Positions 23,796-41,796 of a stretch of 64,000 bases of DNA are shown in pieces. Position 1 is the first letter of the stretch. The number at the start of each line of letters is the position of its first letter. The DNA comes from Deltaproteobacteria bacterium. Lineage in GTDB: Bacteria; Myxococcota; JACPTQ01. The translations under genes were made by a program, and so were the position numbers. The notes under the pieces were generated by a model. It made no database searches and had not been told where the DNA came from. It worked only from the letters and a program-made list of their open reading frames with translations. The DNA is taken from the NCBI GenBank assembly GCA_016192705.1, contig JACPTQ010000042.1:1-64000 (forward strand), read 5' to 3'.

Positions 23796-24730
23796 TGCCA
23801 TCGATTGGGCTCATTGCAAATCCGAATTCACGTCGCAACCGCAAAGACCCTGACGCGATGCGCGCCATGCTTCGCTACCTTGGACGCGACGACGAATACG
23901 TTGAGACGGGAAGCACCGAAGAAATTGCGCGCGTCGCGGCGCGCTTTCGTCGGCGCGGCATCGATGTCCTCGGCTTGAATGGCGGCGACGGAACTCTTCA
24001 CGCGACGCTCACGGAATTCATCCGCGTCTACGGCAACCAGCCTCTGCCGGCGATCGCGCTTCTTCGCGGCGGCACGATGAACACAGTGGCCAATTCGTGC
24101 GGTGTTCGCCAAGGCACGCCGGCCGAACTCATCAAGGCGCTCGTGGGCGCGCGGCGACGCGGACTCCCGCTTGCCGGCGTCCATCGCGACATCATGCGCA
24201 TCGACGACCGCTACGGCTTTATCTTCGGGAACGGCATGGTCTACGAATTCATCGCTCAATACTACTCGTATGGTGATCCGTCGGTTTGGTCGGCCTTTCG
24301 GACTCTGATCGAAGGGTGTGCATCGGTTGCCGTCGGAGGCGCGATTTCGCAGCGGATGTTCCGGCGGTTTTGCGCCAAAGTCACCGTCGACGGGAATCGC
24401 TGGCCTTACCCGGATTACGTTTCCGTTGTTGGCTCAACCATTTCGCAGGTCGGGCTTGGCTTTCGTCCATTCGTTCGCCACGAAGAGCGCCCTCATTCGT
24501 TTCACATTCTTGGACTTTATACGACGGCAGCGGGCTTTGCCCTCGAGCTTCCGTTGATTCGCCTCGCACGGCCACTCAACCCCAAAAAAATAATCGACGC
24601 CGTCGCGGAACACGCGCTCTTCGAAGCCGACGAGCCCATAAAATACATCGTCGATGGCGACCGCTATGAGGGCCCCAAGCGCCTCGAACTCGGCGTTGGT
24701 CCGCGTCTCAAAATCCTTTTGCTTCGTTAA
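23795..24730 (+). CDS. Diacylglycerol/sphingosine kinase-family protein
   Basis: The protein has 311 residues from MPSIGLIANP (TGATG overlap with the previous stop). The DAGK catalytic domain is clear: opening IANPNSRRNRK, the nucleotide-binding NGGDGTLHATLTEF, and IALLRGGTMNTVANSCG. A C-terminal beta domain ends with IKYIVDGDRYEG, the conserved 'D-G-E' region with a Arg/Tyr variant. Relatives phosphorylate diacylglycerol or other lipids at the membrane. The stop overlaps the stop of the opposite-strand repeat protein (TTAA). Confidence 0.9.
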   Translation: MPSIGLIANPNSRRNRKDPDAMRAMLRYLGRDDEYVETGSTEEIARVAARFRRRGIDVLGLNGGDGTLHATLTEFIRVYGNQPLPAIALLRGGTMNTVANSCGVRQGTPAELIKALVGARRRGLPLAGVHRDIMRIDDRYGFIFGNGMVYEFIAQYYSYGDPSVWSAFRTLIEGCASVAVGGAISQRMFRRFCAKVTVDGNRWPYPDYVSVVGSTISQVGLGFRPFVRHEERPHSFHILGLYTTAAGFALELPLIRLARPLNPKKIIDAVAEHALFEADEPIKYIVDGDRYEGPKRLELGVGPRLKILLLR

Positions 24731-27120
24731 CGTTTCATCGCGTTGGCGCGATAAACCGAAAGATTTTTCTCGCAGAGTTCGATATCGGCCGGCGCGCGCG
24801 CCAGTTTCAGCGCGGCCTCACTCACATGGATCGCGTTCGCGTATTCCCGCACGGCGTTGAGGTCAACCGAGAGGTTGATGAGCGTACGACTCGAACGCTC
24901 GGCGAGCCCCGTCGCACGCTCGTTCAGAACGCCGAGGTTTTCAAGCTGGGCGTGGCATTGCGAAAGCGAATCAACCATCGATCGGAGCGAAAGCCACATG
25001 GCATCGGATCGCTTTGCGCGCCGTTCCGCATTGGCTGTTGAATCCGTCTCGATGTTTGAGCTCGCGTGATCGACCGTCGCGCAAAGTTCGGAGGCGATCA
25101 CCTCAGCCGTCCGGCGGAAGAGGCGACTGCGTAATACCTCGTCCGCAATCGAACGTCGTTTCGTTTCACCGTCGAGCCACGTGCGAAGTGTCACCGCGAG
25201 TCGCGCCTCCGCTCGATCAATCGCTTCCGTTGCCGCGTCACGACCGACGCGCGGGTCGTCGAGATCGATCGCGCGACCGCTGACAAACGCGGCATAAACT
25301 TTCTGCGAAAGCGCCTCATCCCAAGCCGCCGCCCAACGTCGCCAACCACTCCACCCGCGCCCACCCGCCTCTCGTTCCCGCTCGATCTCGACGGCAACGT
25401 CGTGTCGCGCGAGCATCCGAATTCGCTCACTCGAACATGACGCAGCGATTTTCTCCACGTCGCGCTCGCGCCTTTCGCCACCCGAAATAATTTCAAGAAG
25501 CTGCTCCGTCGCGGCAATCTCCGCGCGCAGGTTTCCGAAACGCCATGCGAAGCCAGCGAGCCATGTCTCCGCCGATTTCCAGTTCCTCTCGGCTATCGCG
25601 GACCTAAATGCGGCGAGGCCCGTCGCCAGCGATTGCCTTCGCGCTTCGGCTGCTTCCCGCCATTTCCCCGCATCTGACGGAATTCCAGCCCGTCCCGCGA
25701 GCAATTCGCCGATCGGGTCGGCGGATTTCCGAACGACTGTGTCGAGCTCGGAGCGAGCCGCGGCAACCGATTCCGTGATCAGTCGGATGAGCGCGCGAAC
25801 CCGTGGTGGCGCTGCCGCATCGAACTTTTCCGGAACCTCGAAGCGACGCCCAGCCGATGCGCCTTCAAGAAAAGCGTAAGCCGCCCGGCGTCCAACTTCG
25901 TCGCGAAACGGACTCTCAAGACGAGCCACGGAAACAATTCGACTTGCCATGTCGGCACGTCCCGATGCAAGACACTCCTCAGCGACAACGCGCGCGCGCT
26001 CGCGTGCTACGTCGCGTCCCTTCTCGGTGCGCGATCCCGCGCGAATCCAAAATCGCACGGCGTCAGCAAAGGCGCCTGTTCCATACGCATAATCGCCCGC
26101 CGCCTCTTCCACGTCGCCGGCGACCCCCTCGTGGAGCATCCGATCGAGAACCACGCTCCTCTCTCGTCGCCGGGCTGCATAACGGAACAGCTCGCGCGCC
26201 GTCCAAGCCGACTCAACGGAAGCCGACGCCGATTCAACAAGCGTGGCGAGCGGAACTTCGACTCGCAACGCGTCCTCCATACGGAGCAAGACATTGTCCG
26301 GCTCGTGTTCAAGGCCGGCCAACGTCCAGGCGCGGCACGAAACAACCTCGCCGCGCAAACGACTGAGCCGCGCGAGTCCCAAACACGCAGCGCCCTTCGC
26401 GACGCCCTTCTTGAACGACGCGATCAGCGACCGCGAGAATCCAGCGGAATCAGCCTCACCCGCGCAAATGAGCGCGCGAACAACGTCGGCCCTCGCACGC
26501 ACCGCTTTCGATCGACGCGCCCAGAAGAGCCAACGGTTTGCTTCGTCGTATTCCTTCGCATGTGCACAGACGATGCTTCGTAAAAACATGAAGTCAGCCG
26601 CGAGCGATTTCCACCATGGAACCACCGCGATTAATTCCGCTGCGTCAGCAAACGCTCGCCGCGCAATCGCAAGGCGCGCGAGCTCGAAACGGGCAAACGC
26701 CGAGTCTTTGGCCGCGAGTGACAGCCTCAGATCTCGTTCCGCCTCATCGCACCGACCCTGGAGAAGCTCGACTCGGCCGAGCCACGCGCGAGCCAAGCCT
26801 GAAACGAACGCGGAACGACGAAAGTTGTCCTCAGCTTCAAGAAGCAGCCGCTCGCGCGCTACGCCCGTCAAACCGCGCCGCACGGACAAATCGGTTGCTC
26901 GGGCGAAATCGATGGCCCGACCTGGTGTATCGTTCGACTTCTTCGATCGAGCGATCGCCTTCCGAAGAAGCCAGAATCCAACGGCCCGAAACCCCAAGCC
27001 GTTGAGAAGATACCCCACGACCCCTGGGAAGAGCAGTACCGCGAGAAACAGCGCGACAAATGCGACGCGTAAAACGACGACAACGTCGGACAGATCCACG
27101 ATCGCTGCGCCACTATTCAT
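24727..27120 (-). CDS. Membrane-anchored helical-repeat (TPR-like) protein of the Hsp70-like operon
   Basis: The protein has 797 residues from MNSGAAIV (8-nt overlap with the GrpE-like stop). One strong N-terminal membrane helix (VVVVLRVAFVALFLAVLLFPGVV) is followed by a basic stretch. More than 700 residues of short helices come next, with TPR-like Ala/Leu/Tyr spacing, for example ARAWLGRVELLQGRCDEAER, FARFELARLAIARRAFADA and the last ANAIHVSEAALKLARA. Such repeats bind partner proteins. As the final gene of the Hsp70/J-like/GrpE-like operon it may be a membrane receptor or substrate platform for that chaperone. No enzyme motif is seen. Confidence 0.78.
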   Translation of the reverse strand: MNSGAAIVDLSDVVVVLRVAFVALFLAVLLFPGVVGYLLNGLGFRAVGFWLLRKAIARSKKSNDTPGRAIDFARATDLSVRRGLTGVARERLLLEAEDNFRRSAFVSGLARAWLGRVELLQGRCDEAERDLRLSLAAKDSAFARFELARLAIARRAFADAAELIAVVPWWKSLAADFMFLRSIVCAHAKEYDEANRWLFWARRSKAVRARADVVRALICAGEADSAGFSRSLIASFKKGVAKGAACLGLARLSRLRGEVVSCRAWTLAGLEHEPDNVLLRMEDALRVEVPLATLVESASASVESAWTARELFRYAARRRERSVVLDRMLHEGVAGDVEEAAGDYAYGTGAFADAVRFWIRAGSRTEKGRDVARERARVVAEECLASGRADMASRIVSVARLESPFRDEVGRRAAYAFLEGASAGRRFEVPEKFDAAAPPRVRALIRLITESVAAARSELDTVVRKSADPIGELLAGRAGIPSDAGKWREAAEARRQSLATGLAAFRSAIAERNWKSAETWLAGFAWRFGNLRAEIAATEQLLEIISGGERRERDVEKIAASCSSERIRMLARHDVAVEIEREREAGGRGWSGWRRWAAAWDEALSQKVYAAFVSGRAIDLDDPRVGRDAATEAIDRAEARLAVTLRTWLDGETKRRSIADEVLRSRLFRRTAEVIASELCATVDHASSNIETDSTANAERRAKRSDAMWLSLRSMVDSLSQCHAQLENLGVLNERATGLAERSSRTLINLSVDLNAVREYANAIHVSEAALKLARAPADIELCEKNLSVYRANAMKR

Positions 27121-27595
27121 TCCGCGGCTTCTCCCTCGGAACCGCGACAACAACCTCGCCCGGCGAAAGCAGGCTCTCGCCGAGAAAGAGTGTGGGCTTG
27201 ACGGTCTCGGAAACCACCGCGCGCGTCACGTCGTCCGTGGGTTCGAAGACGAGCACCGTCACGGCGTCGCGCTCGTCCCAAGTGCGCCCTGCGGGATCGT
27301 CGATGCGAATGCCCAGCGACTCGAGCGCCGCGAGCATCTTGTCGGACGACGCTTCGACCGTTCGTACCACGGCACGCTCCGCTTCGCTGAGCCTCGCGAG
27401 CCGCGACCGCACGCGCCACACCTCAGTCGCGAAAACCGTAAGCGCCTTAGACAGCCGCTCGATCGCAGCCCGTTCCGCGGTATCACGCGCTCCGGGGCTC
27501 ATTCCCCGAGTCGCAGCGAAAACGCCGTCCTTCGCATCCCCTCTCGACTGCGAGGTCCTCCTCGCTCCCAGCAGCCGCTTGAAGAATCCAGCCAC
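27113..27595 (-). CDS. Divergent GrpE-like protein
   Basis: The protein has 160 residues, starting at GTG in a TAGTG overlap with the J-like gene. Residues 60-100 are a charged helix (LARLSEAERAVVRTVEAS... MLAALESLGI). The end is a beta domain with the GrpE pattern: LGIRIDDPAGRTWDERD, VTVLVFEP, then TRAVVSETVKPTLFLGESLL and GEVVVAVP, like the 'G-Y-x-x-x-D-R-V-L-R-P-A-x-V-x-V' end of GrpE. The long dimerisation helix is much shorter than in true GrpE. In this operon it would act as nucleotide-exchange factor for the neighbouring Hsp70. Confidence 0.65.
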   Translation of the reverse strand: MAGFFKRLLGARRTSQSRGDAKDGVFAATRGMSPGARDTAERAAIERLSKALTVFATEVWRVRSRLARLSEAERAVVRTVEASSDKMLAALESLGIRIDDPAGRTWDERDAVTVLVFEPTDDVTRAVVSETVKPTLFLGESLLSPGEVVVAVPREKPRNE

Positions 27596-28095
27596 TACGA
27601 CCCCCGCGATCCCTTCGCCCGCGGCACCCCGACCATCTCGCCCCAATCAACGTCGTCGAACGACAGAAGCGGCAACCCGGCGTCATCAAGTGTGGCACCA
27701 AACGCCGCGCGCTTTCTCTCCGCGTGATCGCCGGGCAACTCGTATTTCGGGGGAAACTCAAGCGATGCCCAAAGCATCTCTTCAGCTACAACCGCGCTCA
27801 GAGGGCGCTCCTCCGTCGCCGCCTTTTCCAGCGCTTCGCCGAGTTGAGCAAAATCGCTCGCGTCAATGTTCTCGGGATGGAGTGCCCGCGCAAGCACTTC
27901 GGCTTCAAGGCGCCGATGCGGGTCGCGCAACTCATCGAGGGCTCGCCGCACCTCGTGCTCACGCGCCGCGTCCTCATCGCCCGTAACACCAAGCGCAACC
28001 TCCGCGAGAAGCCGCTGGGCCGCGCGCTCAATCTCACCACGGCTCGCACACGGCGAGACGCCCAGCACATCGAAAGGATTTCGATCGCTCCTCAC
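27595..28095 (-). CDS. J-domain-like protein lacking the HPD motif
   Basis: The protein has 166 residues. The opening NPFDVLGVSPCASRGEIERA is the start of a J domain ('N-P-Y-x-V-L-G-V-x-x-x-A-S-x-x-E-I'). The helix EVRRALDELRDPHRRLEAEV resembles helix III. Between them, where J proteins carry His-Pro-Asp needed to trigger Hsp70 ATP hydrolysis, there is ALGVTGDEDAAREHEV and no HPD. After the J-like part is a ~90-residue acidic and aromatic region with no known domain. It starts at GTG overlapping the Hsp70 stop (GTGA), so it is translated with it. Confidence 0.7.
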   Translation of the reverse strand: MRSDRNPFDVLGVSPCASRGEIERAAQRLLAEVALGVTGDEDAAREHEVRRALDELRDPHRRLEAEVLARALHPENIDASDFAQLGEALEKAATEERPLSAVVAEEMLWASLEFPPKYELPGDHAERKRAAFGATLDDAGLPLLSFDDVDWGEMVGVPRAKGSRGS

Positions 28096-30563
28096 CGCAC
28101 GCCCGAACCAAACCCCTTCACACGGTCCTGTTCATCCGCCGGCAAGAGCTTCCAAAGCGAACGCACCGTCTGCTTCAGCTCGTCGATTTTTCCACCCGAC
28201 TCGTGCCCTCGTATCTTCTGCCCAGCCTCAATGAGTCGGTGCGCCGCCTCTCCATCCGTGAAGCGACTCGGCGTCGACGCCAAATAATCAAATTCGGCCA
28301 TCCACGTCGCTGGATCCCGACTCTCAATCGCCCACGCAAGCTGGTGCAGCTCGTCGCCCTTCCACTCCACCGCATGGACATCGCGCTTCTCCCGCGCCGT
28401 CACGACCTCCGCCTGGAGTCGCTCGAAATGTTCGCGCTCGATCTCCTGGCCCGCCGAAATAACCGCCATTCGCGCACGCGCGAGCGCCCGGTCAACCTCT
28501 TTCTCAACCTCCGGCCACTTGAGCGCCGCCTCAACATCATCGACCCGCATCTGCAAATCGAGAAGTCGCCGCACCGCCTGCTGCGCGGCATCGGTGTCAC
28601 CGCCCTTCGCGGCATCGATCGCGATCTCGAGCTCAATCACGGCGTCGTCAAGATCGCGCGACAATCCAACCGCCGCCGTCGCCCCAAGATCGGCCGCCGC
28701 ACGACGCGCTTTCGACAGGCGCGCGCGCTCTGCCCAAAGCGTTTCTGCGAGTCTCTCTGGGTCCGCGATCGGCGTTGCGATCGTGACGATCTTTTCGAAC
28801 ACCTGATCCGCGAGCGGCACATACGCTTGTGCCCGCACCGAACCCGAAGCATCGACCTCAATCGTGACCTCAACCTCCGTTCCAGCCGGAAGAGTCCGCC
28901 GAAGGTTATCGGCATGGATTTCGAGGGTTCCTATGTGTCGATTGCGATCGGCCCGCAGCGATTCACCTTGAACAACAGGCACCGCCAGGATCTCCCCGCT
29001 CTCGCCGATGTTGAGTGGCTGCACCGTTTTATGGGTGAACGTGCGCCGCGCCGGCAAGCTCGATCCCTTCGTGATGTAAAACCGCATGTTGTTGTCCGCG
29101 GTTGCGACGCCGACCGATCGCGACAAAGGTGGTTCCGAAACGACCATTCCGTAGCTGATCGAGAAACCGTCCGGCGAAACAGCGACCGCATCTCCGCGTT
29201 CGTCAACGGCGCGCACAAGAAACTTCGTCGACCCTTTCTTGTGAAGCCGCACCGACACCGTAAATCCACCGCGCGCGTTGACGGGAACCCGACCCGAGCG
29301 GAAGGAGCCATCGACGGCGTCGATCTCGACCGCGGCGACCGCACGCCGATCGTTGGCGTCACCGGTCGACACGCGTCCGACAACGAACGGCTCCGCGTCC
29401 TGAGATATCGGCGGGTATTCAAGTTTCACGCGCCACGTCCCGCGAGGCACCGCGACAAGCGCTGTCGACTCGAGGCGCTGCGTCGCCGCATGAATGGCCG
29501 CGCCCTGTGCAACAATGGTGAGCGGGTCGACGCCAGCTTCCCCCTTTACACCGAGCGCGTCTTCGACGGCCGCCCGCAGCATGGGCGTCAACGTGGGTCC
29601 GCCAACAAAAATAAGCTTCTCGATCGCACGCGACGACAACCGATTACGTTCGATGAGGCGCTGCACGAGTTCAACAGACTTCGCAACCCGCGACTCGATC
29701 ATTTGCTCAAAGTCGCGCCGCGTGAGCGTCAAGCTAAGGTCGACGCCGTCCATCAACGCGTCGATTTGAAAGGGGGCCTTCTCCGCGCGCGACAAAAGAA
29801 TCTTTACGTCCTCCGCCGTGGCCTTGAGTTTCGCGAAAGCCCGGCGCACCGCGGGATCGGTCGACGATCGGTCGAATCCCATTAAGCCATCGTCGCGCAG
29901 GTGCTTCGCCGCCCAATCGACGATGAGCCAATCAAAATCTTTACCGCCGAGAAAATTATCGCCGTCATGGTCGACGACCTGCATTCGCCCGTCGCGCGTC
30001 AAAAGTACCGACGTGTCGAACGTCCCGCCGCCCAGGTCGTACACGACCCATGTCCCGCGAACATCGGTCGGCCCGCGATAGCCGCACGCGATGGCCGACG
30101 CGATCGGTTCTTGGAGAAGGGGCGCGACATCCAATCCCGCAAGTTTCCCCGCGCGCCCGGTCGCCTCGCACTGCGGGATCTCGAAGAGCGCCGGGACCGT
30201 GATAACCGCGGCCGCCATCTCCTCGCCCAATTGATCGCGAACATCGGCGCGCAACGATTTCAGCACTTCGGCCGACAACGCCTCCGGCCCAAGTTCTCGC
30301 CCCGACTTGGGGAATCGCCACGCCTCGGTCGTTCCCATGATGCGCTTGAATTCGGCGCGCGTGTTGTCGGGGTCGAGCTCCAGCGTCTGCTTGGCCCGGC
30401 GCCCGACCGTGACCGCACCATCGGCCGCGACGCGAACAACCGACGGCGTCACCTCAGCGCCATCGCTGTTTCGCACAACCTGAACCTGCCCGTCGTTCAT
30501 AACGGCGACCGACGAGTTCGTCGTCCCGAGATCAATTCCGAAATCGATTGTGGTTCGCCCCAT
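28092..30563 (-). CDS. Hsp70-family chaperone with an extra beta domain
   Basis: The protein has 823 residues; DnaK has about 640. The nucleotide-binding domain (1-365) is normal: DFGIDLGTTNSSVAV, VVYDLGGGTFDTSVL, and FVGGPTLTPMLR. About residues 366-477 are an inserted beta-rich segment (GTWRVKLEYPP ... GGFTVSVRLHKKGSTKF) that looks Ig-like. Only then comes the usual linker/substrate domain start (PPLSRSVGVATADNNMRFYI, compare DnaK 'TPLSLGIET'), to about 585. A ~240-residue charged helical tail follows. AAGGAG precedes the ATG. It heads an operon with J-like, GrpE-like and membrane repeat proteins. It is not the housekeeping DnaK. Confidence 0.9.
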   Translation of the reverse strand: MGRTTIDFGIDLGTTNSSVAVMNDGQVQVVRNSDGAEVTPSVVRVAADGAVTVGRRAKQTLELDPDNTRAEFKRIMGTTEAWRFPKSGRELGPEALSAEVLKSLRADVRDQLGEEMAAAVITVPALFEIPQCEATGRAGKLAGLDVAPLLQEPIASAIACGYRGPTDVRGTWVVYDLGGGTFDTSVLLTRDGRMQVVDHDGDNFLGGKDFDWLIVDWAAKHLRDDGLMGFDRSSTDPAVRRAFAKLKATAEDVKILLSRAEKAPFQIDALMDGVDLSLTLTRRDFEQMIESRVAKSVELVQRLIERNRLSSRAIEKLIFVGGPTLTPMLRAAVEDALGVKGEAGVDPLTIVAQGAAIHAATQRLESTALVAVPRGTWRVKLEYPPISQDAEPFVVGRVSTGDANDRRAVAAVEIDAVDGSFRSGRVPVNARGGFTVSVRLHKKGSTKFLVRAVDERGDAVAVSPDGFSISYGMVVSEPPLSRSVGVATADNNMRFYITKGSSLPARRTFTHKTVQPLNIGESGEILAVPVVQGESLRADRNRHIGTLEIHADNLRRTLPAGTEVEVTIEVDASGSVRAQAYVPLADQVFEKIVTIATPIADPERLAETLWAERARLSKARRAAADLGATAAVGLSRDLDDAVIELEIAIDAAKGGDTDAAQQAVRRLLDLQMRVDDVEAALKWPEVEKEVDRALARARMAVISAGQEIEREHFERLQAEVVTAREKRDVHAVEWKGDELHQLAWAIESRDPATWMAEFDYLASTPSRFTDGEAAHRLIEAGQKIRGHESGGKIDELKQTVRSLWKLLPADEQDRVKGFGSGVR

Positions 30564-30610: not shown

Positions 30611-33600
30611 TCAGGGCGCGAAGAATGCCGCCCCATTGTTCTTCACGTAGTCGATCCCCGCACGGAGAATGTCGGCGATCGTTTTGGCCTTTGCGTCAAG
30701 TAAGCTCGCGAGGTCCCGAAGAAAGGGGCCGGTCACGAGATCCATCACCATCGTCTTGAGGCCTGCCAGGCCTGCCGCGCCCCCACTCTTCACCTTATCG
30801 ATGAATGCGATCAGATCGGCCGGCTTCTCGAGCAGCCCACAGAGCTGGTTGACGAGGAACGTGACGACCGTCTTCGCGACGCCTTCCGGGACCTTGTTTA
30901 CGACGACCGCGGTCAAGAACGCCCTCACCGCCGGGGCGATCACCACCAAAATGGCCTCCACCTTTTTTTTCACGTCCGAACCGCTGAAGGTCGTCGCGAG
31001 AGTTTTCGCGTTCTTCACGAAACCACCCGCGGCATCGATGAGCGCGTTGATGAACGTGGTCACCGCACCCGCCGGTGCGACCCGCGCGATCTGCGCCTTC
31101 GCGACGCCGAGCACCTTGTCGACGATGCCGCTCACGACACCGCTGGCGCCGTTTAGCGTGAGCTGATTCCAGGCATTCGGACCATTTGCGAGCAGGCTGA
31201 CCACGAACGTCCCGAGCCAGTCGAGCCCCTGGATCACGAGATCCTTGAGAATCACCAGACTCGCGGGGAAAAGCGGCACGACCTTGGCCTTGAGGAAAGT
31301 CATCAAGACCGGGATCATCTCTGCGAGCTTGCCCTTGACGAGGTTCCCGATCTCCTGCGCCGTGGCGCCGATATTATCGAAGACCGACAAGAGGATCCCC
31401 TTCGCCGCGACCACGACCGGCTTCAGCTCCAGATCGCGAACGGCCCAACCGATAAGCTGGTCGAGGAGCTGGCTCACCACGCCTCGGATCTGCATCCACA
31501 CCGCCTTCGCGCCGCCCGGGCCAGCCGGAAGGAGCGACGCAAGCTCGCTCGGGTTCGCCGCGTAGTGGACCGCCTTCTCGATGATCGTCTTCAGGACCGG
31601 CATGACGGGATTCCCACCCACGACTCGCTCCACGACTTGCACGATGATCGCGGCGACCGTCGCCTCGTTGAACACCACTTTGCTGACATCGATCGTCGGC
31701 GTGACGCCTTGGACCATCCACGCCAGCAATGCACGGACGCTGCTTCCAACCGTGTTCGTGAACGCCGTCCATGCGGCCTGCGCCTCTGGGATGGTCCGCT
31801 GCGGGTTGGCGAACAGCTCGACAAGCCCCCCAAGCACCGTGCGCACGTGCCCCCCGATCGTCGGGCTCCCGGCCGAAACGATGTTCACGACCGCATCGAC
31901 AACTTTGCCCATCGCCCTCTTCGCGAGCTTCACAACTTGCACGGCGCCCTTTCCTGCAAGCGCCGTCAACCCGCCCACCTCCAGCGACACGAGCGCATTC
32001 ACCATCTCGGTCACCACCGCATCGGCGATCGCGACGACGACCGGGCTCGCCCCCGCATCGGTCGCCTTCTTCTTGAGAATCTCCTTCACCGCGGTCGCGA
32101 CCTCGCCAAGGATCGCGTTCCCATTGGTCGCTAGCCACGTCGGCACGCTGTCAAAGAACACCTTCCCCTTCACGAACGGCCCGTTCGGACCCAGGAGCGC
32201 GGAGAGCACGTTCTCGATCGTCGGCTCGAGCCCAGTCCCCGCCGCCACGTTTTTCAACCGGCCGATGAGATACGGCTTCGCGACGTCGACTGCGTTCGCG
32301 AGGATCGCCTTCACGTTCGCGTTGACATCCGTGCCCCCGAAAACCGCCCCGCGCTTCGCATCATCCGTCAGGAAGTCGAAGAGCCTCGCGATCGTCTGCG
32401 TGACGAGGGTCTTCTCGAATCCGAAGACGTCGGAGATGAAGGCGGCGAGTTGGTTTTCAACAAACGGCCGAATCCACCCAACGATCTTCGTCACAAACGC
32501 CCACGGGTTATCGATGTAGTCTGTTTTGAACTGGGAGATGTTCCCAATCACCCAGACGATCCAGTTATATACCTCCTCGATCAGCGTCTTGACCGACCCC
32601 GAAGCCGGGATCTGCGCGAGGAACCACTTCCCGAGTTCACCGAACGACCCCGCGATCCACGCCCCGACCTCCGCTGGCGTCAGCGGCGATCCGGACCGCA
32701 GCTTCGCCACCGCCGACGACAGCGACGTCGCTATCGTGTTGAGTATCGTCTTCGCGATCTCAGGCATCGGGACGAACGCCGTGATGATCGGCACCACCGA
32801 AGGGAAGATCTTCGTCGCGAGGAAATCCACGATGAACTTGAGAAGGTACTTGCCCTTGTCGCTCGCATTCGTCAAACCGCCCTGAAACGCGGCAAAGTTG
32901 GCGTTCCTCACGGTGTTCTGGATCTCTCCGACCGCTGTCGTAAACGTACCCCTCGCGCCGAGATTCTCGATCCTCTCCGCGATGACGACCTTGAATCCTT
33001 CGATCATCCCGATGATCACCTCTTTGAATTGGTCGCCAACGCTCATCCCCTCTCGGCTGTTCGCGACGATCGCCCTTTTCGAGAAGATCAACGCGCGAAT
33101 CCAAAAGGAAGGTGGCGGCTTGATGTTCGCGAGGATCGTCTCGATGGTGGTGAGCGCCGCAGCAAACGCGGCCTGGACGGGGCCCTTGCTTCCATACTGC
33201 GAGGCCGACTGAATCATGTCGAGGACGAAGCCGATGACGACCGCGAGGACTGGGTTTATCTCGATCTGGCTTGGGTCGCCCGTGGAGAGTTCCTTGAGCT
33301 TGAGCCACTTGGGTAGATTCGCGACGACCACGCCCTTCAAAAGCGCCTTGATGCCGAAATCGAAAACGAGCCACCACGCGACCTCGACAAGTTGGACCAG
33401 AATCGAGCCGGCGAACGGAACGGCCGCTGCCGAGCTCAGAAGAGTTGCCTTGACCCCCTTGAGCGCCATCTTAAGGATGTTCAACACTAAATCGACGGTC
33501 CTGTTGCCGAGCATGACAATGATCGACTCGAGACTCGTCCCAAAGTTCTTGAGGAACACCTTGGTGAGGCAGGCGAGCTTGTTGTCCATCGACCCCGAAA

Positions 33601-36133
33601 GCCCCAGCGTCTCCTTCCGGTATTCAGCATCCTCGCAGTCGAACGATTGTTCGGGTGAAAGGCCAGAGGCTTGTGCAAGTGTCTTTGTCAAGTCCTCGAG
33701 CCCAGTCGCCTGAAGGATGATGCCGAGGATCGTTCCCACGACCGACGAGACCCCGCCCGCCACGGCGGCGCCCGCACCGCTCTGGCTCGATCCGCCTTGC
33801 GCATTCCTCTCATTGGCGATCTCCGCCGCACCATCGTCGAGCAGCTTACTGATGAAGTGCTCCTGATTGTAGAAGGGGCTGGGTGGGCTGGGGTTGCAAT
33901 CAAGTGGTTTGCCGTCCACCTTCGGCGCCGGCCCCGACGACGGCCCGGGCTTCCAGCTACAGCCGTCGCGCCAGAATTTTTTGACCTCCTCCAGTTTCTC
34001 TTTCACCTGTGGGTGCGAGAAGATCGCGTTCCACAGCGGCGACTTGCTCGTGTTGGCGTCCATCCAAATCTTCGCGAATTTCTTTATCCCGTCTTTGTTC
34101 AGGGAACGACCATCTGGAAACACAAACCCGCGGCACGTCTCGATCTCCCCCACGAGCAAAAAGCACTTCTGCCATGGGCTAATCGGAAGTTGGTCGAGGA
34201 CCTGCCTCCCCTGGGACGATAGGATCTTCGAACCGAACGGGAAGAACCGGCGCACCCGGAGGACCTTGCGAACGCTCGTGTCCAGTCGCTGGTCCGATGC
34301 CTCTTGTTTCCGATGGCGTTCGGTGTCAAACGCCTCCTCGATGGCACGACCGACAGCCCAGTTGAATACCGTGTTCCCGGTTGGCAGCTCGGTGAAGGTG
34401 AACTTCCGGGTCCCGAGCGAGCCGCCCAGGTCAACCGAAACGATTGCGGACGGCGTACCGACCGCGGTTGCTGGGTTTGGTTGCCCTGTCGAAAGCTTGG
34501 GGTACTTGGCCTCCGCCTTTTCCCGGCAGTTGTCCCCCGCCCGCTTGCCGTCGACGCATTGATCGAAAAGCGCCTCGAGCGCACAGCGCGCGCACGCCTC
34601 GATCTCGTTGGCGGTTTTCGGAGACTGGCAGACGGCGTTGATCTCGTTGCAGTCGGTCCAGAAGCGGTTGAGCTCGAGCTTCTCGGCGGCCTTGTAGGTG
34701 GCGAAGGCATTCTTGATCGGCGCCGGTCCCGTTTCAAAGTACCTTGTCGTCGTGCGGTATTCCCACGCATCGGTCCATTGGTCGACCTTGAGCCGGAGCG
34801 ACTCGCGGTCGGTCTGTTGCGGCGCGCTCGCGTTCTGGTTATCGACATCGGCCTTCAGCTCCAGAGGGGGATTTGGTAGCCGAACGTGGTCTTTGCTCTC
34901 CTCTTTGTTGTCCTCGAAGACACGCGCCTTTCCCGCCTTTCGAAAAAACCCGCTCACCCGACCGGCGATGGCTCGAAACGTCTCGCCCTTCAGGTGGTTC
35001 TGTCCCGTGATGACGCCAAGATCCTGTTTCAAAAGCTCCTCGGCGAGGAGACGATTGAGATCGTCTTTCTTGATGGTGCACGACACCTTCGGCGGCGGCC
35101 CGATGAGTCTCGCGCGCATATCGACGCCGAGAGACCTGCCGTGCTGGCGGCGGCAAGCGAGGTCAAAGTCGGGGCGAAAACGCCCGCCCTCGCGCGCATC
35201 GCATTCGAGTGACTCGGCGACCGGGGTTGATTTATTCTCCAATCGGCAGGCTTGGGCGAGATCGACGAGGCGGACGTCGTCGGCAAGCTTACCGTCGGCG
35301 AGCTTGAGCTTCGCGCGAACGACCCTCATCGCATTCTCCGCATCGACTCCCAAAACGTCCGCTGTCCCGCGAATCTGGACCGGGTCTTCGGTGGCCTTCC
35401 CCGATCGCCCTTTGACGAGGAGCGCGAGGTCTTTTCTGAGAGTTTCCTCGAGCTGCAGATGTGTCACCTCGCAGACCTCGACGACGTCGTCTTTCTTGGG
35501 CGGTCCTTGGTATTTCGACGAAGAGCCTTTCGGGTCGTTTCGTGGCCCCGCGTCCGTTCGCTCAAGCGCATCGTCGGCGTTGGAGATCGGCGCCTCCCAA
35601 TCGCCAGCTGTTTGCGCCCCACCGGCCTTCGAGACCCTCACCTGGGTGATGCGAGCGAACCCAGGCATGTGGCGGCTGATCTCGCGACAACCGAAGTTGT
35701 AAAGCGCGGCGACGGGGTCGTTCGCGGTCTTGATCATGTCGACGCGCTTCCAGATGTAGTCGATGTAGGCGTCGAGCCCGGGCAAGATCCCTTCGTACTT
35801 CACGATCGGGGCGACGCAATCGGCTGGTCCGGCGCCCGCCGGGCATTTCCGCTCGCCAAGGTCGTCGGGGAGCTTCTGTCCCGCGGGCAGTGTGCCGGAA
35901 GCGATTTTGGCCTCGAGCGTCGACTTGAGCGCTGCGATTGGGACGAGCGCGCCGAGACCCTTTCCGTATTTCTGGCGAAGCGGCTGCAACGCCGCCCGAT
36001 CCGCCGATGCGAGAGAAACAGCGCTCGCAAGGTCTCGATTGGCCGTCGGCCGTCCTCGAAGCCTCAGATCCGCCCGTGTTCCATCAGGCAAAACGACCAA
36101 ACCCAGAACAACCAACAGCCGCGGCAAGCGCAT
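30611..36133 (-). CDS. Giant exported helical-repeat protein, unknown function
   Basis: The protein has 1840 residues, an ATG with AGGAGG, and a Sec signal peptide (LPRLLVVLGLVVL...TRA). Residues ~20-800 are polar, mixed structure with scattered cysteines (DLACRRQHG, CARCALEALFDQC, CKIK-like spacing) that suggest disulphides. From about 830 to the end there is a long run of amphipathic or hydrophobic helices with loosely repeated units of ~100-120 residues ('V...V-x-x-A-x-x-F-L...G-x-x-x-L-I-x-x-L-I-x-x-A'), for example IIVQVVERVVGGNPVMPVLK and TTFINALIDAAGGFVK. It has no enzyme motif. It may be a surface, lipid-binding or membrane-active protein. A smaller protein at 54.9-56.5 kb has a similar style. 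Confidence 0.75.
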   Translation of the reverse strand: MRLPRLLVVLGLVVLPDGTRADLRLRGRPTANRDLASAVSLASADRAALQPLRQKYGKGLGALVPIAALKSTLEAKIASGTLPAGQKLPDDLGERKCPAGAGPADCVAPIVKYEGILPGLDAYIDYIWKRVDMIKTANDPVAALYNFGCREISRHMPGFARITQVRVSKAGGAQTAGDWEAPISNADDALERTDAGPRNDPKGSSSKYQGPPKKDDVVEVCEVTHLQLEETLRKDLALLVKGRSGKATEDPVQIRGTADVLGVDAENAMRVVRAKLKLADGKLADDVRLVDLAQACRLENKSTPVAESLECDAREGGRFRPDFDLACRRQHGRSLGVDMRARLIGPPPKVSCTIKKDDLNRLLAEELLKQDLGVITGQNHLKGETFRAIAGRVSGFFRKAGKARVFEDNKEESKDHVRLPNPPLELKADVDNQNASAPQQTDRESLRLKVDQWTDAWEYRTTTRYFETGPAPIKNAFATYKAAEKLELNRFWTDCNEINAVCQSPKTANEIEACARCALEALFDQCVDGKRAGDNCREKAEAKYPKLSTGQPNPATAVGTPSAIVSVDLGGSLGTRKFTFTELPTGNTVFNWAVGRAIEEAFDTERHRKQEASDQRLDTSVRKVLRVRRFFPFGSKILSSQGRQVLDQLPISPWQKCFLLVGEIETCRGFVFPDGRSLNKDGIKKFAKIWMDANTSKSPLWNAIFSHPQVKEKLEEVKKFWRDGCSWKPGPSSGPAPKVDGKPLDCNPSPPSPFYNQEHFISKLLDDGAAEIANERNAQGGSSQSGAGAAVAGGVSSVVGTILGIILQATGLEDLTKTLAQASGLSPEQSFDCEDAEYRKETLGLSGSMDNKLACLTKVFLKNFGTSLESIIVMLGNRTVDLVLNILKMALKGVKATLLSSAAAVPFAGSILVQLVEVAWWLVFDFGIKALLKGVVVANLPKWLKLKELSTGDPSQIEINPVLAVVIGFVLDMIQSASQYGSKGPVQAAFAAALTTIETILANIKPPPSFWIRALIFSKRAIVANSREGMSVGDQFKEVIIGMIEGFKVVIAERIENLGARGTFTTAVGEIQNTVRNANFAAFQGGLTNASDKGKYLLKFIVDFLATKIFPSVVPIITAFVPMPEIAKTILNTIATSLSSAVAKLRSGSPLTPAEVGAWIAGSFGELGKWFLAQIPASGSVKTLIEEVYNWIVWVIGNISQFKTDYIDNPWAFVTKIVGWIRPFVENQLAAFISDVFGFEKTLVTQTIARLFDFLTDDAKRGAVFGGTDVNANVKAILANAVDVAKPYLIGRLKNVAAGTGLEPTIENVLSALLGPNGPFVKGKVFFDSVPTWLATNGNAILGEVATAVKEILKKKATDAGASPVVVAIADAVVTEMVNALVSLEVGGLTALAGKGAVQVVKLAKRAMGKVVDAVVNIVSAGSPTIGGHVRTVLGGLVELFANPQRTIPEAQAAWTAFTNTVGSSVRALLAWMVQGVTPTIDVSKVVFNEATVAAIIVQVVERVVGGNPVMPVLKTIIEKAVHYAANPSELASLLPAGPGGAKAVWMQIRGVVSQLLDQLIGWAVRDLELKPVVVAAKGILLSVFDNIGATAQEIGNLVKGKLAEMIPVLMTFLKAKVVPLFPASLVILKDLVIQGLDWLGTFVVSLLANGPNAWNQLTLNGASGVVSGIVDKVLGVAKAQIARVAPAGAVTTFINALIDAAGGFVKNAKTLATTFSGSDVKKKVEAILVVIAPAVRAFLTAVVVNKVPEGVAKTVVTFLVNQLCGLLEKPADLIAFIDKVKSGGAAGLAGLKTMVMDLVTGPFLRDLASLLDAKAKTIADILRAGIDYVKNNGAAFFAP

Positions 36134-36236: not shown

Positions 36237-37631
36237 TCAGAACGCCCCGTCGCCGCGCCCACCTTCGGCAAGGTTCTCGAACCGCGTGAACTCGGAAAAA
36301 AACCGGACGCGCGCGAGGCCGATCGGGCCGTTTCGCTGCTTTCCTAAGATGATTTCTGCGACGCCCTTATCTTTGGAGTCGCGGTCGTAAACTTCGTCGC
36401 GATAAATGAACATGATGACATCAGCGTCCTGCTCAATGGCGCCCGACTCACGAAGGTCGGCGAGGCGCGGCCGCTTATCGTCGCGCGATTCAACGCCGCG
36501 ATTGAGCTGCGACAGCGCGAGGACCGGCACGTTTAGCTCTTTCGCCAAGGCCTTCAGCGAGCGCGAGATGTCAGAGATTTCACGCTCGCGCCCTTCGGCC
36601 GCGCTTTCGGAGCGACCGCGCATCAGCTGCAGGTAGTCAACGATGACGAGGTCAAGTGAGCCCTGCGCCGCAAGCCGCCGCGCCTTTGAGCGCATCTCGA
36701 GCGCCGATATCGCCGGCGTGTCGTCGATATAGAGCGACGCCCGCGCAATCTTCCCGGCCGCCTCCGTGATGCGCCCCCATTCATCGGGCTTCACAAAACC
36801 ACGCCGCAGCTCGTTTGAATCGACGCGCGCTTCCGAGCAAAGCACGCGCTGAATCAACTGATCGGCCGACATTTCAAGCGAAAAAACCGCGACCGTCTTC
36901 CCGGCCTCAAGCGCCGCGTGCTCTGCGATGTTGAGTGCGAGCGCCGTCTTTCCCATCGACGGGCGCGCCGCGAGCACCAGCAAATCGCTCTTTTGAAATC
37001 CGCACGTCAAATCGTCGAGCCGCTCAAATCCCGTTGGAATTCCCGTCAGACTTTCTTTTCGCAAAAAGAGTTGTTCGAGCCGGTCGTAACTTTCGCGCAC
37101 AACATCGTGCGCCGGCCTAAGCCCTCGCTGAAACCGGTCGGCCGCGACCTGAAAAATAATCTGCTCCGCTTCCTCGACGACCGCGGGCGCCTCACCGCTA
37201 CCCGCGGCGCCCTGCGCGCGCGTCGCGATTTGATTCGCCGCCCCGAGGAGCCTTCGCAACAGCGCTCGCTCATGAACGATCCGTGCATACGCCTCGGCGT
37301 TCGCCGCGCTCGGCACAGCGTCAACGAGCGAAGCCAAAAATACCGCTCCCCCAACCGCATCGAGCGCCCCCGCCGCGCTGAGGGCGTCCGAGAGCGTCAA
37401 CAAGTCGATCGGACGGTCGGCCTCCGCGAGCTTCAAGCACACCTGGTAGATCGTCTGGTGCGCCTCGCGGTAAAAATCGCCCGCGGCGATGAGACCCGCC
37501 ACGGCGTCGACCGTTGCGTTATCTAGAATGATACTTCCGAGGACAGCGATTTCAGCTTCGATGCTGTGGGGAAGGTTGAGAGACGACGCCCCCTCGCGAG
37601 ATTCCGGTCGAGGTATGAGCGCCGCTCCCAC
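36237..37631 (-). CDS. dnaB: Replicative DNA helicase DnaB
   Basis: The protein has 464 residues. The N-terminal DnaB domain starts SLNLPHSIEAEIAVLGSIIL. The C-terminal RecA-like domain has Walker A AARPSMGKTALALN, Walker B VIVDYLQLM and the arginine-finger region VLALSQLNRG. It unwinds the fork as a hexamer with the primase. The start is GTG at 37631 by default: no strong ribosome site is seen and a short N-terminal extension is possible. It sits 9 nt after rplI in the ribosomal operon. Confidence 0.96.
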   Translation of the reverse strand: MGAALIPRPESREGASSLNLPHSIEAEIAVLGSIILDNATVDAVAGLIAAGDFYREAHQTIYQVCLKLAEADRPIDLLTLSDALSAAGALDAVGGAVFLASLVDAVPSAANAEAYARIVHERALLRRLLGAANQIATRAQGAAGSGEAPAVVEEAEQIIFQVAADRFQRGLRPAHDVVRESYDRLEQLFLRKESLTGIPTGFERLDDLTCGFQKSDLLVLAARPSMGKTALALNIAEHAALEAGKTVAVFSLEMSADQLIQRVLCSEARVDSNELRRGFVKPDEWGRITEAAGKIARASLYIDDTPAISALEMRSKARRLAAQGSLDLVIVDYLQLMRGRSESAAEGREREISDISRSLKALAKELNVPVLALSQLNRGVESRDDKRPRLADLRESGAIEQDADVIMFIYRDEVYDRDSKDKGVAEIILGKQRNGPIGLARVRFFSEFTRFENLAEGGRGDGAF

Positions 37632-37640
37632 CCGAAATAT

Positions 37641-38093
37641 TTACGCTTCGGCCTTTGCGACAACGTTCACGGTGAACGCCGCGACGATTTCCGCCGACAG
37701 TTTCACTTCGACCGTCGTTTCGCCGAGGGCCTTGAGCGGCTCGGGCAAGACAATCTGCCGCTTCTCGACGGTGAGCCCCTTGTCGCGAAGCGCATCCTCA
37801 AGATCCTTCGACGTCACCGAGCCGAACAACTTCCCAGCCTCGCCCGCCGCGCGCTCAATCGTCACCGTAATGCCCGTGAGCTTCGTCGCCATCGCCTCGG
37901 CGTCCTTCCGACGCTGCAACGCAAGCCGCCCCAGCACCGCTTTCTCGTGCTCAAGCTGCCGAACGTTTTCAACCGTCGCCCGAAGCGCCTTCCCCTGCGG
38001 AATCAAGAAGTTACGGCCGTACCCCTCCTTCACGGAGACGAGCTCGCCCATCTTCCCGAGGTTCGCCACATCTGCTTTCAAAATTACTTTCAT
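37641..38093 (-). CDS. rplI: 50S ribosomal protein bL9
   Basis: The protein has 150 residues, normal length. The N-terminal domain has MKVILKADVANLGKMGELV and VKEGYGRNFLIPQGKA, the conserved 23S-binding part. A connecting helix and the C-terminal domain (TVTIERAAGEAGKLFGSVTS) follow. It lies between rpsR and dnaB, with GGAG before the ATG. Confidence 0.97.
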   Translation of the reverse strand: MKVILKADVANLGKMGELVSVKEGYGRNFLIPQGKALRATVENVRQLEHEKAVLGRLALQRRKDAEAMATKLTGITVTIERAAGEAGKLFGSVTSKDLEDALRDKGLTVEKRQIVLPEPLKALGETTVEVKLSAEIVAAFTVNVVAKAEA

Positions 38094-38105
38094 GGCGTTC
38101 TCCTC

Positions 38106-38390
38106 TCAACCAGCCGACACAACGTACGGCAAAAACGCGATCTGCCGCGCTCGCCGAACCGCCACCGCGACCTTCCGCTGATGCGTCGCGCAGTTTCCAC
38201 TCAGCCGACGTGGCAAAATCTTCCCACGCTCGGAGATAAAGTTCCGAAGCATGCTCGTGTCTTTGTAATCAACGTCCGGCAGCTTATCGACGCAAAATCG
38301 GCAAACCCGACGTTTCTGAATTCCACCGCGCCGCTTCCGGTCGAAGTCGTCATCGTGATCTCGTTCCCGGTCTCGATCAAAGTCTCTCAT
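38106..38390 (-). CDS. rpsR: 30S ribosomal protein bS18
   Basis: The protein has 94 residues. The core GGIQKRRVCRFCVDKLPDVD, then RNFISERGKILPRRLSGNC and the final QRKVAVAVRRARQIAFLPYV, is typical. The CxxC...C pattern (CRFC and later Cys) suggests a zinc-binding type of bS18. The N-terminal 18 residues are an extra Asp/Arg-rich run. The ATG overlaps the rpsF stop (ATGA); bS6 and bS18 bind each other on the 30S platform. Confidence 0.97.
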   Translation of the reverse strand: MRDFDRDRERDHDDDFDRKRRGGIQKRRVCRFCVDKLPDVDYKDTSMLRNFISERGKILPRRLSGNCATHQRKVAVAVRRARQIAFLPYVVSAG

Positions 38391-38920
38391 CTTCCACCTC
38401 TGTCACCGCGACCACGGCCGCTTTCGTTGTCCCCATGCTCCGCAAGCGCGCTCGCCACAAAATCGTCGTCGTACGCGTCGAATTCGTCACGCCGCCCACG
38501 CCCGCGGTCGTCCCGCTCTGGACGCAATGGCTCGTCGGCGACATCGACAATCTTGTTTTTGTCGTCGGTCAAATCCACCGCCGCCTTCGACTCTGGATCG
38601 ACGTCGTCCGCAATCCGCTTCGAGTGAATGCGCACGACATCGTCCTGCATCCTGAGATTCCGCTGAATCTCGTCGACGGTTTTCCCATCGCGCGACAAAT
38701 AACCCGCAAGCATCACGATCCCCTTCGGGTTTTTCGCCACCGGGAACGCCAGTTTCTTGCGCCCCAAGTTGTCGAACCGAACGATCTTCCCGTTCAGCCG
38801 CGCGACCGTTTCATAAACGCGCTTATTTGTCCGCTGGAGCACTTCTTCATTCGCGTCGGCACGCACGATAAAAATCGTCTCGTACTCGCGCAGCTTCTCT
38901 TTTCCTTCTACCTGCTTCAT
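38387..38920 (-). CDS. rpsF: 30S ribosomal protein bS6 with a long acidic tail
   Basis: The protein has 177 residues from MKQVEGKEK, with GGGAGG a few nt upstream. The bS6 fold covers residues ~8-110 (REYETIFIVRADANEE, NLGRKKLAFPVAKNPKGI, LRMQDDVVRIHSKR). The last ~70 residues are Asp/Glu/Arg/Gly-rich and end in an RGRGDRGGR run, longer than in most bacteria and probably disordered. A hairpin with a GGAA loop lies in the leader. It is coupled to rpsR by ATGA. Confidence 0.96.
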   Translation of the reverse strand: MKQVEGKEKLREYETIFIVRADANEEVLQRTNKRVYETVARLNGKIVRFDNLGRKKLAFPVAKNPKGIVMLAGYLSRDGKTVDEIQRNLRMQDDVVRIHSKRIADDVDPESKAAVDLTDDKNKIVDVADEPLRPERDDRGRGRRDEFDAYDDDFVASALAEHGDNESGRGRGDRGGR

Positions 38921-38937
38921 CACACCTCCCTATGGAT

Positions 38938-38956
38938 GTGGGGTCTTCCGACCCAC
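38938..38956 (-). promoter_or_regulatory. rpsF leader hairpin with a GNRA-type loop
   Basis: In the mRNA sense, GTGGGTC pairs with GACCCAC, with one extra C bulged, around a GGAA tetraloop. The stem ends 17 nt before the rpsF ATG. bS6:bS18 complexes regulate their own mRNA through leader hairpins in many bacteria. I do not see a firm match to that consensus, and there is no U-run to make it a terminator for pth, so its role is open. Confidence 0.35.
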
Positions 38957-38985
38957 AGTCCGACTCTTTCGCGCCGGACAAGGAG

Positions 38986-39570
38986 TTACTCGCTCGCTTT
39001 ACGCGGACGTGATCGATTTGTTCGATTCATCGCCGCCACGAGCCCCTTCTCACCAAACACCCGAGCCGCTTCCGCCGCCCGAGAAATCATCTCTTCCCAT
39101 CCGACCCGCTCGTCCTCCCGCAACCGCGAAAGAACAAAATCGGCCGGGTCCCAATCTGCGGGCGGTCGCCCAATCCCGCACCGCACCCGCCCAAACCCGC
39201 CGCCCAGCACCGCTTCGATCGATCGAAGCCCGTTGTGCCCACCGTGCCCGCCGCCATCCTTAACCTGCACACGCCCAAACTCGAGCTCCATGTCGTCGTG
39301 CACAACGACCCAGTCGCTCGCCCCAAGCTTGAAAAACCGCACCGCCTCCGCGACCGCGGCTCCGCTCAGGTTCATGTACGTCTCGGGTTTTAGAAGCCAC
39401 GCCTCCTCGCCCGAGAGCCGCACGCGCGCCACGACACCGCGAAACTTTCGCTGCCATGTCGCCCCGCACGCCTCGGCCACGCGATCGACAACCCGAAACC
39501 CGACGTTGTGCCGCGTTCCCGCGTACTCCGAACCCGGATTTCCAAGCCCAACCACCAACCGCGCCGACAT
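38986..39570 (-). CDS. pth: Peptidyl-tRNA hydrolase
   Basis: The protein has 194 residues, normal length. Family motifs are LVVGLGNPGSEYAGTRHNVG (substrate-binding Asn and catalytic His in TRHNVGF), LLKPETYMNLSG, VVVHDDMELEFG, and GGGHGGHNGLRSI. It frees peptidyl-tRNAs dropped from ribosomes. It lies between rplY and rpsF, 31 nt after the rplY stop. Confidence 0.97.
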   Translation of the reverse strand: MSARLVVGLGNPGSEYAGTRHNVGFRVVDRVAEACGATWQRKFRGVVARVRLSGEEAWLLKPETYMNLSGAAVAEAVRFFKLGASDWVVVHDDMELEFGRVQVKDGGGHGGHNGLRSIEAVLGGGFGRVRCGIGRPPADWDPADFVLSRLREDERVGWEEMISRAAEAARVFGEKGLVAAMNRTNRSRPRKASE

Positions 39571-39600
39571 CGCGGCTCCAACCGTCTCGCGCCGACCGCG

Positions 39601-40368
39601 CTACTTCTTTTCCTTTCCACCCGCCGCTGGCTTTGCCGCCCCAGCCGCCGGAGCCGCCCCCGGTGCACCCTTCGCCGCGCCCGCCGCCGGCGCTGCTCCC
39701 GGAGCCGCCCCCGGTGCCGCACCCGGTGCACCCGGAACCGCCCCAGCAACCGCCGCTTCGCCTTCCGCTGGCGCCGCGACCTCGGCCTCTGCAACCTTCT
39801 CCTCTTCCGGCGCAACCACGTGCACAACCGTCTGCTTCGGGTCCATGACGATCTTCACTTTGGCAGGCGGCTTCAAATCCTCGGCCTTGATGCCATCGCC
39901 AATTCCAAGCGCCGAAATATCGACTTCGATCTTCGCTGGAATATCGGCCGGCAAGCAAACAACCGGCACGCGCCGCACAACCTGGTGCAAAATCCCGCCC
40001 TCGTTCTGCCCAACCGCGCGTCCCACGACCGCGATCGCCACATCGACGCGGGTCGGCGTCGTCGGATCGACCTCGCGGAAATCGGCGTGCAAAAACTCTT
40101 TCGACACCGGGTGCGCCTGAAAGTCGTGGAGCAGCACCGTTCGCGTCGACGACGACCCGTTGTTTTTCACGTGGAGCGAGAGCACCGTGTTCATCCCCCA
40201 CGGCGTCGCAACCGCCTTCTCAAGGTCGTGCGGCGACACACAAAGCGCAACCGACTCTTTCCCGCGCGCGTAACAAACCGCCGGGATCAAACCCAGCCGC
40301 CGCGCCTGCCGCGCCCCGCCCTTACCCCGCCGCTCTCTCACTTCCGCATTTAGCGTTCTCGCTTCCAT
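39601..40368 (-). CDS. rplY: 50S ribosomal protein bL25 (CTC form) with Ala/Pro/Gly-rich tail
   Basis: The protein has 255 residues from MEARTLNAEV, with GAGGG 8 nt upstream. The 5S-rRNA-binding bL25 domain (1-95; RERRGKGGARQARRLGLIPA) is followed by the CTC/TL5 beta domain (to ~190; LPADIPAKIEVDISALGIGD). The last ~55 residues are a repetitive Ala-Pro-Gly tail (APGAAPGAAP-type units) ending in Lys, unusual for the family and probably flexible. It lies between prs and pth. Confidence 0.95.
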   Translation of the reverse strand: MEARTLNAEVRERRGKGGARQARRLGLIPAVCYARGKESVALCVSPHDLEKAVATPWGMNTVLSLHVKNNGSSSTRTVLLHDFQAHPVSKEFLHADFREVDPTTPTRVDVAIAVVGRAVGQNEGGILHQVVRRVPVVCLPADIPAKIEVDISALGIGDGIKAEDLKPPAKVKIVMDPKQTVVHVVAPEEEKVAEAEVAAPAEGEAAVAGAVPGAPGAAPGAAPGAAPAAGAAKGAPGAAPAAGAAKPAAGGKEKK

Positions 40369-40397
40369 TTTCGTTCCCTCGTCTCTCTTCTCTCTCG

Positions 40398-41360: not shown

Positions 41361-41728
41361 TTCAACACCGGCCGATTATCAACCTTTCGTTCCGCTCGCT
41401 CCGTCACCAGGTCGAGGTCATCCAAAGCGCCGTCGTCCACCATGCGGTCCGCGCCATGCGCACGCACCGGCTGGCGTTTAATTTCCGCTGCGTACTCCGC
41501 AAGCACGCGCGACTCAATCATCTCGCGCGTCTCCATGTTGAGCGGGTGCGCCATATCCTTAAACGTGCCGTCCTTCCGCTTCTTCGCCGGCATCGCCACG
41601 AACAGCCCCGAATTCCCATCGATGATCTTGACGTCGCGCACGACGAAACAGGCGTCAAACGTAATCGTCACGTACGCCTTCAAACGCTCTTCGTTCACCG
41701 GAAAAACTTTGACTTCAGTCACTTGCAT
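41357..41728 (-). CDS. spoVG: SpoVG-family RNA/DNA-binding regulator
   Basis: The protein has 123 residues. The SpoVG fold is clear: [58 protein letters not shown] and [16 protein letters not shown]. In Bacillus and Borrelia relatives it binds nucleic acid and tunes gene expression. In deltaproteobacterial genomes it is commonly upstream of prs, as here. The C-terminal 25 residues are not part of the core. AGGGG precedes the ATG. Confidence 0.96.
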
Positions 41729-41796
41729 CTTCTTCCCCTCCTCGACGAATCCGCTGTCACACTCCGTTGCCGCTCACTTCCGAGAGGCCCCCAACA

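Follow-up and report, generated by a model that had tools for sequence, protein, structure and literature searches.

Four overlapping genes at the locus

The window, by which we mean the whole stretch of 64,000 nucleotides that was analysed, carries a minus-strand block of four genes at 24727-30563, in which neighbouring genes overlap by 4 nt (GTGA), 1 nt (TAGTG) and 8 nt (ATGAATAG). An earlier note on this DNA had described the block as overlapping genes for an Hsp70, a J-like protein, a GrpE-like protein and a membrane protein, and we recovered all of the open reading frames and all three overlaps.

28092..30563, minus strand: Hsp70, 823 aa, with an inserted beta domain and an extended helical C-terminus
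27595..28095, minus strand: J-like protein without HPD, 166 aa, GTG start
27113..27595, minus strand: short GrpE-like protein, 160 aa, GTG start
24727..27120, minus strand: helical protein with a predicted membrane anchor, 797 aa

All four genes were called by a codon-usage gene caller. The caller placed the starts of both small genes internally, at 27502 and 28068, and the first codons of the J-like and GrpE-like genes are thus uncertain. For the J-like gene, the start given above (that of the earlier note) is favoured because J-like homology already begins at residue 6. Counts of promoters and terminators were near shuffle expectation and were uninformative.

Another gene (30611-36133, minus strand) lies upstream on the same strand, 47 nt from the Hsp70 gene. 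The N-terminus of its 1840-aa product is signal-like; the protein contains several hydrophobic segments and was assigned to no Pfam or NCBIfam family. We rejected this gene as a fifth operon member, as no homologue was found near the 16 other Hsp70 copies searched in the phylum. Further upstream, also on the minus strand (36237-42681), are housekeeping genes: dnaB was identified by NCBIfam, and rplI, rpsF, pth, rplY, prs, spoVG and ispE, which follow it, were identified by eye.

The operon recurs in dozens of species

Full-length matches to the Hsp70 were found in 17 of 195 genomes of the phylum, the window's own genome included (16 others). When one genome per species was scanned, we obtained 72 related loci, mainly from Myxococcota (Archangium, Nannocystis, Sorangium, Enhygromyxa, Plesiocystis and Minicystis), with a few from outside this phylum (Acidobacteriota, and Gammaproteobacteria such as Microbulbifer). 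The earlier note had staked its reading on the homologues being adjacent in other genomes, and they are. In 66 of the 72 loci a J-like gene directly follows the Hsp70 gene, and in one further locus it lies at another place. A third gene, encoding a protein with a TM-like N-terminal segment, comes next in 59 and is found elsewhere in one more. These counts are not independent samples, because the loci were chosen for the similarity of their Hsp70s and include several close relatives, and several loci without the J-like or third gene end at contig ends. As the arrangement recurs in dozens of species, it is not a product of chance. No further partner was conserved beyond close relatives in the 72 loci; this is a weak negative, since the simple gene caller often picked antisense frames in GC-rich genomes.

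Some loci depart from this pattern. Family Hsp70s in loci L074, L080, L084 and L104 have neither a J-like nor a membrane gene nearby, which suggests that the Hsp70 may not need its partners. Locus L104 and a complete operon (L091) share one MAG (JAUIKS). A complete three-gene operon (L066) lies on a contig titled as a Klebsiella pneumoniae MAG, which is probably mislabelled or a mixed bin.

Relatives of the Hsp70 are also carried by plasmids of Vibrio, Polaromonas, Shewanella, Aeromonas, Aminobacter, Pseudomonas and Sinorhizobium. In these relatives a small gene of about 114-123 codons lies directly upstream of an Hsp70 gene of the same type, and the plasmid records annotate these genes only as 'Hsp70 family protein' and 'hypothetical protein'. 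In a tree of the ATPase domain built from 23 family and plasmid sequences, with seven diagnostic columns left out, a 100/100 branch separated all 23 from DnaK, HscA, HscC and the window genome's own paralogues. The window Hsp70 grouped with that of locus L041 (99/96), and this pair came out, with modest support (83/68), as the sister group of the myxobacterial clade that has three-gene operons. Our literature search, which covered mainly open-access papers, found no paper on this Hsp70 family.

The operon is separate from the housekeeping chaperones, as the earlier note had proposed. Matches to grpE, dnaK and dnaJ lie together on another contig (C56) of the same genome, and a second DnaK is found on contig C48.

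The Hsp70 has an intact ATPase site and an extra domain

28095..28106, minus strand: C-terminal SGVR (family comparison)
28116..28760, minus strand: extended helical lid, residues about 602-816 (AF2)
28770..29168, minus strand: SBD-beta-like domain, residues about 466-598 (AF2; Foldseek to DnaK and BiP)
29184..29450, minus strand: extra beta domain, residues about 372-460, replacing the VLLLDVTPLSLG linker (alignment and AF2)
29475..30563, minus strand: ATPase domain, residues 1-363, with the equivalents of DnaK K70, E171, D194, T199 and D201 kept
30102..30122, minus strand: PLLQEPI, residues 148-154, in which DnaK R167, N170 and T173 are P, Q and I and HPD docking is lost

The Pfam HSP70 model matched the window protein strongly (E=2.6e-84), covering residues 8-361 only. 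The AlphaFold (AF2) model, with a pLDDT of 87.6, begins with the ATPase domain, which is followed by a poorly predicted stretch (364-371), the beta domain, the SBD-beta-like domain and a long helical region. Thus the extra domain noticed earlier holds up: it is predicted to lie between the end of the Pfam match and the SBD-beta-like domain. Foldseek matched the model to DnaK and BiP over about 600-800 columns. Both hallmarks of the Hsp70 superfamily are found in the window protein, an ATPase domain with the phosphate and adenosine motifs and, in the predicted model, an SBD-beta with a helical lid.

Membership in DnaK itself was rejected. The score with the NCBIfam DnaK equivalog was 284 bits, short of both cut-offs (648 and 822), a linker of the VLLLDVTPLSLG type was not recognisable in the alignment to DnaK, and the J-docking residues R167, N170, T173, Q378 and L391 are lost. 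The C-terminus is conserved within the family: SG[VLI]R ends 57 of 72 complete family Hsp70s and SS[VL]R ends five more. It is reminiscent of the EEVD at the end of eukaryotic Hsp70s, to which TPR co-chaperones bind.

Both sides of the HPD contact are missing

In the DnaK-DnaJ complex, D35 of the DnaJ HPD motif bonds with DnaK R167 and Q378, and H33 bonds with the backbone of L391 (PMC8215388). In all systems tested, the J domain no longer stimulated Hsp70 once the H or the D had been mutated (PMC8215388). Using E. coli DnaK numbering, we compared these and other positions across 47 Hsp70s of the family and six relatives from plasmids. Residues K70, P143, E171, D194, T199 and D201 are invariant in all 47 family members. 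R167 is replaced by E in 44 of them, by P in two and by D in one, and N170 (by Q, P or A) and T173 (by V or I) are also replaced in 47/47. Q378 is mostly Y or F and L391 mostly S or T. For positions from the inserted domain onwards, among them L391, the alignment is less certain than for those of the ATPase domain. The six plasmid relatives have lost the same docking residues. All five are kept in each of the four Hsp70 paralogues of the window's own genome and in E. coli HscA; two HscC proteins keep R167, N170, T173 and Q378 and have L or M at position 391.

The partner protein has lost the other side of the contact. The window J-like protein on its own matched the Pfam J domain below threshold (E=0.016). 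When the J-like family was compared with true J domains of the same genome by hhalign, it aligned over the whole domain (P=8.5e-6, 63 columns), which argues that it is homologous to J domains. HPD is found in 0 of 68 family J-like proteins, so that its absence, which the earlier note had seen in the window protein, extends to the whole family. The genome encodes two further J-domain proteins without an exact HPD, one (L121, contig C77) and another (L123, contig C9), of which one has APD and the other no similar motif.

The paired absence of HPD and of the matching Hsp70 docking residues across the family, next to an intact ATPase site, is new, and the loss of the docking surface was absent from the earlier note. 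As both sides of the usual Hsp70-DnaJ contact are missing, these results suggest that the family Hsp70 works without the usual J trigger. The family is thus a natural case for asking if an Hsp70 can be controlled without HPD.

One alternative is that the Hsp70 runs an ordinary cycle triggered by other, HPD-bearing J proteins, with the operon's J-like protein serving as a regulator or brake, as Pam16 does to Pam18. HPD-less J-like proteins of the Pam16 type are known regulators, and the genome has 14 J-domain matches, 12 of them over the Pfam cut-off. However, R167, Q378 and L391, the residues that HPD contacts, are absent in nearly every family Hsp70 examined, so an HPD protein would need to dock differently, and the operon has no conserved J gene with HPD. 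We regard this alternative as unlikely.

The allosteric residues D148, R151, K155 and D481 are also replaced in the family. Together with the lost linker, the extra domain and the longer helical region, this could mean that the Hsp70 has given up the role of folding chaperone and become an ATP-dependent scaffold or switch, or an Hsp110-like exchange factor for other Hsp70s. This seems rather improbable to us, given that the catalytic residues are invariant, that the SBD-beta-like domain is kept and resembles that of DnaK and BiP by Foldseek, and that part of the branch comes with a GrpE-like gene.

The GrpE-like gene is probably ancestral

The GrpE-like protein scored below threshold with both Pfam (18.5 bits against a cut-off of 25.8, E=0.0017) and NCBIfam (21.4 bits against 192). 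Profile comparison to GrpE aligned its C-terminal region (P=4.8e-6), in which the beta-wing region is conserved, and this backs the description of the 160-aa protein as a short GrpE relative. It also matched the six compared small proteins whose genes precede plasmid Hsp70 genes of this branch (P=5.7e-11). The best tblastn matches on plasmids (E=0.02-0.2) came from rhizobial records, and one of them carries the annotation grpE.

A GrpE-like gene is present in the closest relative of the window operon (L024/L041), the Hsp70 of which is 52-53% identical; its GrpE-like sequence and that of the window are the only two known in the subclade. It was not found in the other myxobacterial operons inspected, a point absent from the earlier note. 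Because the gene occurs in the window, in its closest relative and upstream of distant plasmid Hsp70s, it was probably ancestral and then lost in most myxobacteria. The fourth gene of locus L024 (oriented coordinates 11611-12045) does not resemble that of the window: its 144-aa product has CxxC pairs and, at the C-terminus, a TM-like segment.

The membrane link recurs in several forms

27001..27084, minus strand: predicted transmembrane segment, residues about 13-40, with basic residues after it (Kyte-Doolittle)
24760..25671, minus strand: stretch with homology to the third-gene family, in the C-terminal portion of that family (hhalign, P=2.9e-5)

The membrane protein has one strong hydrophobic segment at its N-terminus (Kyte-Doolittle 3.04), and 48 of 49 third proteins have a TM-like segment there. 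A profile of nine third-gene sequences gave P=0.017 only for a relationship between the two, and a 63-sequence profile with controls resolved the link: the hhalign score was 46.9 against a maximum of 29.1 among about 280 unrelated proteins and 60 shuffles. The homology covers the C-terminal 300 residues. By this comparison, the window membrane protein is a diverged, enlarged and distant relative of the third-gene family.

The earlier note had called this protein membrane-anchored and TPR-like. The one-helix anchor agrees with the predicted segment, but the TPR label is weak: Pfam gave no significant match for the protein (TPR, E=0.97). The AF2 model of a relative's third-family protein is all-helical (pLDDT 90.3) and had no clear match in the PDB; its best hit had E=0.016, and the weak hits were mostly TPR solenoids.

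In several relatives the J-like domain is itself part of a larger partner protein. HPD-less J-like domains with the motif N[PA]F.VL occur inside partner proteins of plasmid and myxobacterial relatives. The J-like profile scored 15.2 bits with L155 and 16.2 bits with the myxobacterial L038, compared with at most 5.5 for unrelated proteins; the domain in L165, L158 and L039 was called by motif only. In L038 (7146-8915) and L155 the J-like domain and a TM-like segment are in one chain, as they are, by motif, in L165 (4091-6001). Such fusions tie the J-like part to the membrane. The membrane link that the earlier note had drawn from the window thus recurs, in some loci as a TM protein encoded separately and in others as a fusion.

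Comparison with known systems

The E. coli HscC system with DjlC and DjlB is likewise a non-housekeeping Hsp70 with a dedicated membrane-anchored J partner (PMC8215388). HscC and the window Hsp70 also share a deletion in lobe I of the NBD around DnaK residues 76-101; because a similar deletion has been noted in other Hsp70s (PMC8215388), it is not specific to HscC. HscC proteins have 550-580 aa, keep R167, N170, T173 and Q378, and have no domain inserted between NBD and SBD. HscC is thought not to use GrpE, and its partners are ordinary J-domain proteins (PMC8215388). We rejected HscC membership, as the window Hsp70 has 823 aa, falls on a separate 100/100 branch and has lost the docking residues. 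The comparison with HscC-DjlC in the earlier note therefore stands as an analogy but not as kinship.

The operon resembles DnaK-DnaJ-GrpE in the ATPase site, the SBD-beta-like fold and the presence of J-like and GrpE-like partners. It differs in that the linker, the J-docking residues and HPD are lost and an extra domain and a membrane protein are present. Pam16 (Tim16) of the mitochondrial import motor, likened here by description, is also a J-like protein that lacks HPD and belongs to a membrane-bound Hsp70 system. Pam16 pairs with the HPD protein Pam18, and its partner mtHsp70 is a DnaK-type Hsp70.

The nearest published neighbourhoods are the GAP1-N2 GTPase conflict systems, in which HSP70, GrpE and DnaJ- or TPR-bearing proteins are co-located (PMC7159879). 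These are centred on a GTPase, include FNIII proteins and occur mostly in Actinobacteria and Firmicutes (PMC7159879). With Pfam and NCBIfam, no GTPase gene with FNIII proteins was found among the operon and the adjacent window genes scanned. Myxococcus xanthus also has specialised extra Hsp70s, namely SglK, StkA and CsdK1/CsdK2 (PMC8265645, PMC4319316, PMC10313047). SglK is DnaK-type (PRK00290), CsdK1/2 carry a PilZ domain, and StkA was set beside the window Hsp70 by description only. None of these was found described with this operon. The PilZ-DnaK (CsdK) type was rejected because Pfam gave no PilZ match here, and a known defence system was rejected because no window protein had a match in PADLOC.

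A model for the operon

Based on the gene order, homology and conservation of the operon, the intact ATPase site and the paired loss of the HPD contact, we propose that the four proteins form a dedicated, membrane-docked Hsp70 machine in which the J partner acts as an adaptor and not as a trigger bearing HPD. We give this reading a probability of about 0.6. It retains the earlier note's view of a membrane-linked, separate Hsp70 system, which our results support, and in which joint function is inferred.

We believe that the machine would sit on the cytoplasmic side of the membrane, because basic residues follow the predicted transmembrane segment. The Hsp70 would keep its ATPase site and substrate-binding region, with the interdomain linker and the J-docking surface rewired. 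The J-like protein, with a presumed J fold and no HPD, most likely keeps hold of the Hsp70 or connects it to the anchor; this adaptor role would replace the usual triggering of hydrolysis. The GrpE-like protein most likely speeds nucleotide exchange in this lineage. Tethering of the complex most likely falls to the transmembrane helical protein, which may also choose the clients. Several observations argue against the model: some family Hsp70s stand alone, most myxobacterial operons have no GrpE-like gene, the subclade has only two known GrpE-like sequences, and the window membrane protein is only a distant relative of the third-gene family.

A broader possibility, which we consider doubtful, is that a widespread Hsp70 branch has abandoned the HPD trigger altogether, the contact having disappeared from Hsp70 and partner jointly. 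Hydrolysis would then be controlled in another way (by the adaptor, the extra domain or the membrane protein), and the mobile relatives would act in phage defence. It is far-fetched, in our judgement, that the myxobacterial operon is a domesticated version of what is at root a module of phage defence or of mobile elements. The window operon sits among housekeeping genes and gave no PADLOC match, and the sightings that favour this idea are individual loci on plasmids, where defence genes are common. Some plasmid relatives lie near zorA (L157), BREX genes (L040), a TaqI-like methyltransferase gene (L166) and a restriction endonuclease gene (L165), and two more (L156 and L159) are on Tn7-like elements.
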